Shown piece after piece: positions 22,325-24,552 of a DNA stretch of 37,533 bases (within the stretch, counting starts at the first letter, position 1; each line of letters begins with the position of its first letter). The notes below the pieces were generated by a model. The model searched no databases. It was not told where the DNA came from and saw only the letters and a program-made list of their open reading frames with translations. The position numbers and the translations under genes are program-made. Source of the DNA: an uncultured bacterium (GTDB lineage: Bacteria; Bacillota; Clostridia; Lachnospirales; Lachnospiraceae); assembly GCA_905215155.1 (NCBI GenBank), contig CAJMPJ010000036.1:1-37533 (forward strand). The letters run 5' to 3'.

Positions 22325-23722
22325 ATGAAATACGCTGACAACAAAGTTACAGATTTAACAATCGCCTACATCGGCGGCGGCTCCAGAGGCTGGGCCTGGA
22401 CCTTTATGACCGATTTATCCCTGGACGACTCATTGAGCGGAACCATTCGTTTATACGACATTGACGCGTCCGCCGCAAAGAGCAATGAAATCATTGGAAA
22501 TAAGCTGACTAGCAGAGAAGACACCATCGGAAAATGGAACTACGAAACTTCCGCTACCTTAGAAGAAGCACTGACCGGATGTGACTTTGCAGTTATTTCT
22601 ATTCTTCCGGGAACCTTTGACGAAATGGAATCCGATGTCCACCTTCCCGAAAGACTTGGCATCTACCAGTCCGTAGGCGACACCGCAGGCCCAGGCGGAA
22701 TGATCCGTGCCCTGCGCACCATCCCCATGTTCGTGACCATTGCAGAAGCCATCAAAGAGTACGCACCAGAGGCCTGGGTCATCAACTACACCAACCCCAT
22801 GTCCTTATGTGTAAAAACCCTCTACCACGTATTTCCCCAGATCAAAGCCTTCGGATGCTGCCACGAAGTATTCGGCACCCAAAAAGTCCTAAAAGGGATC
22901 TGTGAAGAAGCACTGGGTCTAAAAAACATCGACCGCCATGACATTCACGTAAACGTCCTTGGAATCAACCACTTTACCTGGTTTGACCAGGCTTCCTATA
23001 AAGGAATTGATTTATTCCCCGTATACCAGGATTACATTAAAACCCACTACGAAGAAGGCTACAACGAACCAGACAAAAACTGGGCAAACAGTACATTTGA
23101 ATGCGCGCACCGTGTAAAATTTGATCTGTTTTGCCGCTACGGATTCATAGCCGCCGCCGGAGACCGCCACCTTGCCGAATTCATGCCCGGAGCAGAATAC
23201 CTAAAAGACCCGGAAACAGTCAAAAGCTGGAAATTTGGCCTAACCACCGTAGCCTGGAGAAAAGAGGACTTAAAAACCCGCCTTGCAAAAAGCCAACGCC
23301 TGGTAAACGGAGAAGAAGAAATGCAGATCACCCCCTCCGGCGAAGAAGGAATCCTATTAATCAAGTCCCTCTGCGGCCTTGCGCGCACCATCAGCAACGT
23401 CAACATCCCAAACACCAGTCTGCAGATCCCAAATCTGCCCAAAGACGCCATTGTAGAAACCAACGCTGTATTCGCCCGTGACAGCATCAAACCAATCCAA
23501 GCCGGTTCCCTCCCGGAAAACCTCCTGGAATTAATAAGCCCCCACGTAGCCAACCACCAGCGAATCCTAACAGCCGCCCTCACCTGCGACCGCTCCTTGG
23601 TCTACGAGGCATTTGCCGCCGACCCTCTCATAAAAGGCCGCGCCACCAAAGCCGAGATCAAATCCCTCGCCGACGACATGATCACAAACACCCTCAACTA
23701 CCTCCCCAAAGGCTGGAAATAA
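22325..23722 (+). CDS. lplD: GH4 alpha-galacturonidase, LplD-like
   Basis: This 465-residue protein is an NAD- and metal-dependent family 4 glycosidase. The dinucleotide site is IAYIGGGSRGW, and the metal site includes GCCHEVFG (Cys178/Cys179, His180) and GINHFTW (His216). Segments such as DVHLPERLGIYQSVGDT, INYTNPMS and AHRVKFDLF closely resemble Bacillus subtilis LplD, which releases galacturonic acid by a redox-elimination mechanism. The start at 22325 follows AGGAGGAACCCAC; an ATG 20 codons upstream has no ribosome site. It is cytoplasmic. In Bacillus lplD sits with lplABC; here an LplBC-like importer is 15 kb away, so the operon appears split. Substrate assignment rests on family resemblance. 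Confidence 0.88.
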   Translation: MKYADNKVTDLTIAYIGGGSRGWAWTFMTDLSLDDSLSGTIRLYDIDASAAKSNEIIGNKLTSREDTIGKWNYETSATLEEALTGCDFAVISILPGTFDEMESDVHLPERLGIYQSVGDTAGPGGMIRALRTIPMFVTIAEAIKEYAPEAWVINYTNPMSLCVKTLYHVFPQIKAFGCCHEVFGTQKVLKGICEEALGLKNIDRHDIHVNVLGINHFTWFDQASYKGIDLFPVYQDYIKTHYEEGYNEPDKNWANSTFECAHRVKFDLFCRYGFIAAAGDRHLAEFMPGAEYLKDPETVKSWKFGLTTVAWRKEDLKTRLAKSQRLVNGEEEMQITPSGEEGILLIKSLCGLARTISNVNIPNTSLQIPNLPKDAIVETNAVFARDSIKPIQAGSLPENLLELISPHVANHQRILTAALTCDRSLVYEAFAADPLIKGRATKAEIKSLADDMITNTLNYLPKGWK

Positions 23723-23764
23723 TAAAATTCATTCAAACAATTACCTATACCCCATGAAATCAAA

Positions 23765-23776
23765 CTCATCCCCTGC
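23765..23776 (+). repeat. Left copy of a 12-bp direct repeat flanking the palindromic element
   Basis: CTCATCCCCTGC here and CTCATCCCCCGC at 24060-24071 differ at one base and bracket the 254-bp palindrome. They may be a target-site duplication, but 28 bases separate this copy from the palindrome while the right copy abuts it within one base. Confidence 0.35.
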
Positions 23777-23804
23777 TCTTTTGTCCTCCGCCAACACGCC
23801 CGCC

Positions 23805-24058
23805 GGGAAAAGAGCCAACAGGGGGACCTGCCGGCGCCGGTTTGCAGGCAGGTTAGAGTTTCTTAGGTTGGAAGGGTACAAAAAATGCGGGTTGGGATTG
23901 GCTTCAAAGCCAATTCCCAAAGGAAACCCTGAGTGCGAATTTCCTTCAGAAATTCGCACGAAGTGTTTCCGATCCCGCATTTTTTGCACCCTTCCGGCCT
24001 TAGAAACCCTCCTGCCGAAACCCCGGCGAAGGCAGGTCCCCCTGTTGGCTCTTTTCCC
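23805..24058. repeat. 254-bp imperfect palindrome with two internal hairpins (Y-shaped element)
   Basis: The terminal 28 bases (23805-23832) are a perfect inverted repeat of 24031-24058; the arms start GGGAAAAGAGCCAACAG and end ACCTGCC. Pairing continues imperfectly inward through GGCAGG, GTTTCT, GGAAGGGT and CAAAAAATGCGGG to about 23891/23974. The apex holds two further hairpins: 23892-23920 (TTGGGATTGGCT/AGCCAATTCCCAA) and 23922-23970 (GGAAAC/GTTTCC enclosing an exact 11-bp stem GTGCGAATTTC). The product is a three-way junction in RNA or extruded DNA. It fills the gap between two convergent genes and contains no plausible gene; long frames on both strands merely mirror each other. It could be a non-autonomous mobile element, a structured RNA or a bidirectional terminator. 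Confidence 0.85.
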
Positions 24059-24060
24059 TC

Positions 24061-24552
24061 TCATCCCCCGCAAAAATTAAGCATAAACCTCCCTTCCCCC
24101 TCATCATCAATCTCCATAATCATATAGGAAGGCTTTCTCCCCTCCTGCCGCGGATAAGACAAACTCCCCGGATTCAAGATAATGACCCCATTATGTACCT
24201 CATAAAAGGGCCTGTGGGTATGACCGTACATAACGATATCCAGATTCCGTTCCCTCGCCTCCAGTTCCAGCCGTTCCACACCAAGAGAAACATTATAATA
24301 ATGTCCATGCGTAAGCAATACCCGGTATTTTCCGATGTTTATTTCCTTCTCCCGGTCCAGGTCGGAGAAAAAATCATTATTTCCAAGCACCATATGAACC
24401 TGACAGTCCTCCCCGGCCCAGCCGGCGATCTTATCTTCACTGCCCTCCACATCTCCCAGATGGATCAGCATATCAAAGGGCCCTTCCTCTTTCATGATTT
24501 TATAAAGATTCTCGTCCTTGCGATGGGTATCACTGACAATCAGTACTCTCAT
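24061..24552 (-). CDS. YfcE/MJ0936-type metallophosphoesterase
   Basis: This 163-residue protein has the calcineurin-like phosphoesterase motifs in order: VSDTHRKDE, HLGDVEGSED, LGNNDFF, THGHYY and GHTHRPF, all ligands for a dinuclear metal site. It is the usual full length for the YfcE group, which hydrolyses phosphodiesters of unknown physiological identity. It is the last gene of the minus-strand operon, one base after rdgB, and its stop codon lies within the direct repeat flanking the palindromic element. A second family member is encoded at 27676-28224 in the same operon. Confidence 0.92.
   Translation of the reverse strand: MRVLIVSDTHRKDENLYKIMKEEGPFDMLIHLGDVEGSEDKIAGWAGEDCQVHMVLGNNDFFSDLDREKEINIGKYRVLLTHGHYYNVSLGVERLELEARERNLDIVMYGHTHRPFYEVHNGVIILNPGSLSYPRQEGRKPSYMIMEIDDEGEGRFMLNFCGG

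Follow-up and report, generated by a model that had tools for sequence, protein, structure and literature searches.

The bcr-type repeats of the Bacillus cereus group are 100–400 bp long, are found in this one group only and have features of mobile elements, bcr1 being present in up to 130 copies (PMC6542083, in its passages on these repeats); bcr1 is also listed as a conserved stem-loop family (PMC2267715, in its list of such families). REPs of the CGTC type mostly have CCA-like tails and are apparently without a dedicated transposase (PMC3733652, in its sections on this type), and the words 'Firmicutes' and 'Clostridi' are absent from the main text of that article. Palindromic, two-strand candidate structured RNAs from the human microbiome make up 250 of 3161 candidates, with terminator predictions for 230, and those that are named, which we compare here by their description, are 80–132 bp long and come mostly or entirely from Bacteroidetes (PMC8040213, in its parts on palindromic candidates).

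In this work we analysed a palindrome of 254 bases in a 37,533-nucleotide stretch of DNA (the window) from an uncultured bacterium of the Lachnospiraceae. This palindrome is one copy of a dispersed, gene-free family of Lachnospiraceae elements that have the shape of a Y-hairpin. Among known repeats, those of the bcr1 type and MITEs resemble the family most, but it clearly differs from both. Like bcr1-type repeats, which have a TTTAT motif and with which they were compared by description, Y units are stem-loop repeats that occur, in the genomes drawn, around one group and are endowed with mobile features; unlike bcr1, they contain a three-way junction and copy-specific arms, they form head-to-head pairs, and one subfamily has terminal inverted repeats (TIRs) and 9-bp duplications. 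With the MITEs of DDE transposons they share the TIRs and 9-bp target duplications seen in Hungatella, the lack of a gene and the existence of deletion derivatives, but their internal core is conserved across genera while their ends change between lineages, whereas ordinary MITEs conserve mainly their ends. TIRs, by which MITEs are recognized, are present in the relatives from genomes G015 and G391 (CAGGATAAACTTGTAAACTTACA) and from G348 (ends of about 35 bp), and the outermost part of the window copy is eroded. GTAG/CGTC REPs and REPINs are likewise palindromes that form dimers and carry short unpaired tags, and the foot of the Y hairpin often reads CCA-GC...GC-GTAAC; however, REPs measure 20–40 bp whereas Y hairpins measure about 250–550 nt, with an internal three-way junction and a core of about 185 nt plus arms, and the REP tag is GTAG/CGTC whereas the foot motif is GTAAC in many copies of Clostridium sp. 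MCC353 (G017). What is new here is a dispersed element family of the Lachnospiraceae that has no match in Rfam and no description in the literature searched, most subscription papers, preprints and supplementary models lying outside the scope of that search. The family offers a test case for the way in which hairpins that are long and nearly perfect persist in genomes, with arms that are equal within a copy and different between copies, and for the way in which a selfish repeat acquires a part showing conservation at a fixed site.

Architecture of the palindrome

The features of the element are collected in Table 1. Most of the architecture claimed by a previous, sequence-only reading of the window was confirmed: the 28-bp terminal inverted repeat of 23805–24058 is exact, the inner arms are mostly paired (inverted arms of 48 nt, 85%, and 43 nt, 84%, plus an apical hairpin), and a three-way junction with two hairpins is predicted in the RNA fold of the 254 bases. 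The energy of this fold is -184.5 kcal/mol, compared with a mean of -86.1 for shuffled sequences (z -17.5; none of 200 shuffles as good). The Y element accounts for three of the six inverted repeats that the whole window contains when arms of 22 nt or more, lying within 600 bp, are required. The convergent setting also held: the flanking ORFs converge, with ends at 23722 and 24061, and the element takes up the interval from a 485-aa ORF, presumably a family-4 glycosidase, to a 163-aa ORF at 24061–24552, presumably an MJ0936-type phosphoesterase. It carries no gene, as had been proposed, the overlapping ORFs at 23741–24073 (minus strand) and 23754–24080 (plus strand) being taken as by-products of the palindrome. 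The description as GC-rich has to be toned down, as the element is only moderately so (GC 0.54 vs 0.45 for the window).

Table 1. Coordinates, in the window, of the Y-hairpin element, its parts and the flanking repeat
Feature	Position	Strand	Remarks
Y-hairpin element, surviving part	23805..24058	+ (the family's sense strand)	TTTGCAGG side 5'
Outer stem 5' arm, GGGAAAAGAG..., copy-specific sequence	23805..23840	+	arm start common to G013 copies
Outer stem 3' arm, ...CTCTTTTCCC	24023..24058	+	
Conserved core, match of covariance model R1, 170 bits	23838..24025	+	training set of 18 rows includes the window
TTTGCAGG, internal loop 5' side	23841..23848	+	common to closer relatives
CCGAAACC, internal loop 3' side	24015..24022	+	common to closer relatives
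First CTTAG	23862..23866	+	pairs with second CTTAG, leaving a T-T (U-U) mismatch
Second CTTAG	23999..24003	+	
Apical hairpin 1, GGGATTGGC-TTCAAA-GCCAATTCCC	23894..23918	+	
Apical arm 2	23922..23970	+	short helix, CCTGA/GAAGT internal loop, hairpin 2 (23933-23959)
12-bp direct repeat, left copy	23765..23776	+	not accepted as target duplication
12-bp direct repeat, right copy	24060..24071	+	not accepted as target duplication

The 12-bp direct repeat that flanks the element does exist, with 11 of 12 positions matching, but its reading as a mark of insertion found no support. The ends of the closest relatives lie outside the repeat (copies in G013 end ...AAAGTCCACGTAAC) and repeats as good are reached by chance, at 11 of 600 sampled places of the window and in 16 of 600 shuffles of the flanks, and we therefore rejected it as a target duplication. 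In the comparison with the nearest relatives the repeat lies inside the natural ends of the family, not at them; the window copy is end-eroded, its outermost part being gone. Rfam at gathering cut-offs gave only tRNAs in the window and nothing at the element, and with relaxed limits the element region and 15 loci gave only subthreshold hairpin matches, nearly all with microRNA models. A cluster of five tRNA genes occupies positions 1–581, at the start of the window.

Distribution of the family

The sequence-only reading had suggested looking for copies elsewhere, and dispersed intergenic copies were indeed found in relatives. In a DNA search, 13 of 24 kin genomes gave hits at E <= 0.01, and for nine of these E was below 1e-37. 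R1, a covariance model built from 18 copies, window included, matched 12 of 25 genomes from the genus of Clostridium sp. Marseille-P2415 (G013), which holds Lacrimispora, match counts including opposite-strand echoes. In draws of genomes from the family, the order and the phylum, in which stricter filters applied, six candidates were scored for each genome and distant copies could escape notice, R1 matched at least 23 of 397, at least three of 392 (the centre genome G013, G302, which is already in the family draw, and G1113) and at least one of 398 genomes (the centre genome itself) respectively. G017 has at least 72 distinct full places in the 56 loci read; its 94 rows also comprise one partial place and 21 opposite-strand echoes, both left out of this count. 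At least 14 R1 matches, echoes included, were found in G170 among the best 120 of up to 1913 candidates scored. The counts in kin, genus and family genomes, together with the 72 places in G017, rule out a single-copy curiosity. Homologous structured copies occur in many independent assemblies, including the complete chromosomes CP102274 (G015) and CP070896 (G024).

A plasmid or phage origin was rejected, with no match in either collection, and matches of a 16-base arm pattern in three viral contigs were taken as chance. A degenerate pattern, TTTGCAGG...CCGAAACC, was noisy (29 of 299 genomes matched, the reversed control also matched in some, and viral contigs gave matches too), with recognizable family sequence only in the matching genomes of G013, G015 and G017, and it was replaced by the covariance model. 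In G348, unit ends lie within about 420 bp of the starts of contigs C23, C24, C37, C40, C45 and C47, as if the hairpins broke draft assemblies.

Units, pairs and genomic placement

Folds of single copies from different genomes follow the same plan, with a copy-specific outer stem, an internal loop, an inner stem and a three-way junction. The common core of about 185 nt consists of the inner stem, the junction, two hairpins and a T·T mismatch; this mismatch (U·U), between two TTA motifs of the inner stem, is present in all 62 aligned rows. The internal loop TTTGCAGG/CCGAAACC was found in closer relatives by alignment. Hairpin 1 and a second arm leave the junction, the latter carrying, in many rows, hairpin 2 and a loop of the CTGA/GAA type. 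The outer stem of G017 copies often has the foot (C/A)CA-GC...GC-GTAAC, and in this genome the arms reach a median of 82 nt beyond the core, up to the measuring limit of 180 nt.

Neighbouring cores less than 900 bp apart are arranged head to head (minus, plus) in 27 of 27 compiled pairs, a set for which some loci were fetched for two close hits and others not, and in which three pairs represent one orthologous site. A pair made of a type-X and a type-Y unit is found, in eight aligned carriers, next to genes that we presume, from their ORF sequences, to be of the TIGR04086 and scfA types and a transporter gene of the CNNM type. Clostridium sp. HBUAS56010 (L085, genome G003) has a single diverged copy, located elsewhere than at this TIGR04086/CNNM-type site.

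The units seldom lie between divergent genes but are frequent at the ends of genes: of the 83 units flanked by two ORFs (the other 13 of the 96 lacked one of the two), 35 are in convergent, 42 in tandem and six in divergent intervals (convergent vs divergent, p 5e-6). These counts are approximate, because a simple script was used to call the ORFs and the units include orthologous ones. In solo copies, the 3' neighbouring gene is directed toward the element in 45 of 65 cases (p 0.003); the 5' neighbouring gene shows no clear bias (38 toward, 27 away, p 0.21).

Mobility

The family is dispersed and has moved, as shown by TIRs and 9-bp duplications in Hungatella and by near-identical copies at different sites elsewhere. 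The Hungatella units (G015, G391) are 430–431 bp long with TIRs CAGGATAAACTTGTAAACTTACA, and all six end-paired units read have 9-bp flanking repeats, perfect in L442 and L444 and matching at eight of nine positions in L094, L120, L352 and L467. In G391, sequence that matches the flanks of L352, split over two contig ends, lacks the unit. L467 is a core-less derivative of 137 bp; a MITE that received the core by nested insertion was considered and rejected, as L467 is better read as a palindrome deletion. Outside Hungatella, units of about 477 bp at four sites in G059 are 89–97% identical and the match stops at the unit edges; two sites in G1113 share 285 bp at 98.6%, and loci of this genome also share repeats outside the element; and the repeated unit of G348, about 785 bp, is a whole head-to-head pair with ends of about 35 bp. 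No consistent target duplication was found for the units of G059, G348 and G1113, 9-bp duplications being present only in the Hungatella type. With up to three mismatches, 16 ends were found in G015 and G391 and 25 in G348; all facing pairs are less than 0.8 kb apart, and no longer or autonomous unit with the same ends was found in these three genomes. The proposal of a non-autonomous mobile element is thus supported by the dispersed intergenic copies and by the Hungatella TIRs and duplications, but a transposase partner was not found.

Conservation of core and arms

In an alignment of 62 rows, 59 of 60 core pairs change on both sides, as compensatory changes do, 96.5% of cells pair, and the covariation score is 0.958, vs 0.227 when shuffled and at most 0.162 with slid partners; this alignment is fitted to the model and made of related copies, and template switching, which can create and maintain RNA hairpins (PMC8794818, in its statements on this process), can mimic compensation. 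The sequence-only reading would have fallen with a single copy that had no relatives and no compensatory changes; both relatives and compensatory changes were found.

A fold of one strand tolerates G·T better than A·C while a double-strand process should be indifferent, hence we used the type of mismatch as a test. In the inner stem of 120 copies, none skipped, G·T outnumbers A·C by 164 to 44. After clustering of the cores at 75%, which leaves 34 representatives, the counts are 34 and 14, and 17 copies have more G·T vs five with the reverse (p 0.017); the test weakens with clustering, p being 0.052 at 70% and 0.031 at 65%. The 23 copies found by DNA or pattern search and not by the model, which are partly close relatives, give 54 G·T vs nine A·C. 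In the outer arms of 114 copies (six of the 120, weakly aligned, were skipped) there are 190 G·T vs 174 A·C (p 0.43), and by copy after clustering 42 have more G·T vs 25 with the reverse (p 0.05). The two arms are 91.5% identical within a copy but 57.7% between copies, for which cores are 78% identical (22 copies, 120 sampled pairs); being alike within a copy and unlike between copies, the arms are thus rewritten together.

At the site beside the TIGR04086-type gene, the G013 pair was aligned with seven orthologues, giving eight carriers (the pair-bearing genomes G319 and G324 are not in this alignment). Identity is 88.9% for the Y core and 81.5% for the X core, compared with 46% for the spacer, 58–65% for the Y arms and, at third codon positions, 55% for the CNNM-type gene and 67% for the TIGR04086-type gene. 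The mismatch bias of the inner stem and the conservation of the core at this fixed site argue that the core would function as a folded sense strand, and against a passive repeat.

The window site in relatives

The neighbouring gene puts the window near Lacrimispora and Hungatella in the Lachnospiraceae, and the phosphoesterase gene is also present in 16 of the 80 loci fetched with this neighbour. The site was compared in 10 of these 16 two-gene loci and in L015; L004, L012, L013, L017 and L060, in which the two genes are kilobases apart, were left out. The element is absent from the site in the 10 relatives read, which have a short convergent gap with what looks, by eye, like a terminator hairpin. 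When the full element was compared by BLAST with the window and the first 83 loci, the only hits were the window itself and one match of 28 nt. In L015 (from G013), the orthologous gap of about 480 bp holds family remnants, namely the left end of a type-X unit, arm pieces and the right tail of a type-Y unit; they enclose a 77-aa ORF, presumably a Phd/YefM antitoxin. These are remnants of a head-to-head X/Y pair around the ORF (L015:11380–11900), so that an old insertion of a pair at this site may have given rise to the window copy. In the window copy one foot of the outer arms is A-rich and the opposite one T-rich, with terminator-like matches on both strands, which suggests that this copy probably also serves as a two-way terminator for both neighbours, where relatives use a plain hairpin. 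A scan for promoter-like sites in front of the window copy found none.

Discussion

We consider it probable that the window copy belongs to a non-autonomous mobile family of giant Y-hairpins with a selected core, probably RNA, and arms equalised by template switching. A transposase supplied in trans would have moved the units; the core would be under purifying selection and act as a folded single strand, most likely RNA; and the outer arms would be kept equal mainly by hairpin-templated correction of the DNA, that is by template switching, and not by selection for an RNA duplex. With a Y-core fold that looks preserved by natural selection, a repeat that spreads in genomes appears to carry a functional structured part, probably RNA. 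The wobble bias and the RNA-like loops point to RNA as the likeliest form of the core, and template switching would be the simplest reason for arms that are equal and show little strand preference. The structured RNA that the sequence-only reading had listed as a candidate thus gains from the covariation, the one-strand wobble bias and the fixed-site conservation of the core, folded DNA being its chief rival. In this rival, the core would act as DNA, either folded as a single strand or extruded as a cruciform, and would be a site of recombination or of protein binding (for a transposase, a nucleoid protein or a chromosome-organising protein) and not an RNA. DNA, too, tolerates G-T better than A-C, and the regular stem feet (C/A)CA-GC...GC-GTAAC of many G017 copies, the strict head-to-head arrangement of the pairs and the lack of a clear sense bias toward the neighbouring gene are consistent with a DNA site. 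However, the duplication-forming transposition seen in Hungatella, like any of this kind, requires no folded single strand, and a site used for transposition only would not need conservation at a fixed locus. We regard a core acting as folded DNA as unlikely, while giving it real weight.

Purely passive MITEs, in which pairing is made and kept by template switching alone and the core has no function, would account for arms that equalise within copies and diverge between them, and template switching can make and keep RNA hairpins (PMC8794818, in the same statements). Nevertheless, core conservation at the fixed site is far above that of third codon positions, the T-T mismatch persists in 62 of 62 rows although templating would erase a mismatch, and the inner stem has a strand bias, which makes a wholly passive repeat improbable. 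A REP/REPIN-type repeat moved by a Y1 transposase (RAYT or IS200) would share the palindromes, the inverted pairs and the short unpaired motifs at the stem foot, and PF01797, the Y1 transposase family, is matched in 14 of 15 carriers. The remaining carrier, G170, has no PF01797 match in spite of its R1 matches, and R1 run around all 55 PF01797 matches (48 loci) gave one weak match (29.9 bits) and one at chance level. These 48 loci contain no repeat-flanked RAYT gene; moreover, the units are not 20–40 bp palindromes with a GTAG/CGTC tag but far larger than REPs, and those of Hungatella have 9-bp duplications, so that movement by a Y1 enzyme seems very improbable. Just as improbable is an ordinary long terminator or an assembly artefact: the terminator-like hairpin seen by eye at the site in relatives and the outer arms, which resemble terminators on either strand, speak for the former, but structured homologues exist in many independent assemblies, complete chromosomes included.

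Within the favoured reading of a mobile family with a selected core, a more specific form can be proposed, tentatively. The family may be a mobile structured-RNA gene, that is, a putative functional noncoding Y-core RNA in a MITE-like carrier, often arranged as a divergent head-to-head pair, with a fixed and selected pair domesticated beside the scfA/TIGR04086-type locus in relatives of Lacrimispora, and with giant arms that would evolve by template switching.

Head-to-head pairs might carry cargo. The spacer of the pair at L334:1249–2064 contains, by eye, a Nudix-like ORF or a remnant of one, and the 5-kb spacer at L326:2471–7466 contains ORFs or ORF remnants, presumably of a relaxase, an AraC-type protein and a repressor. 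A second, small palindrome resembling CAAGGCATTTTCGAAAATGCCTTG, whose copies are sometimes in tandem, is present in the spacer at L337:1250–1696 and in other G017 spacers.
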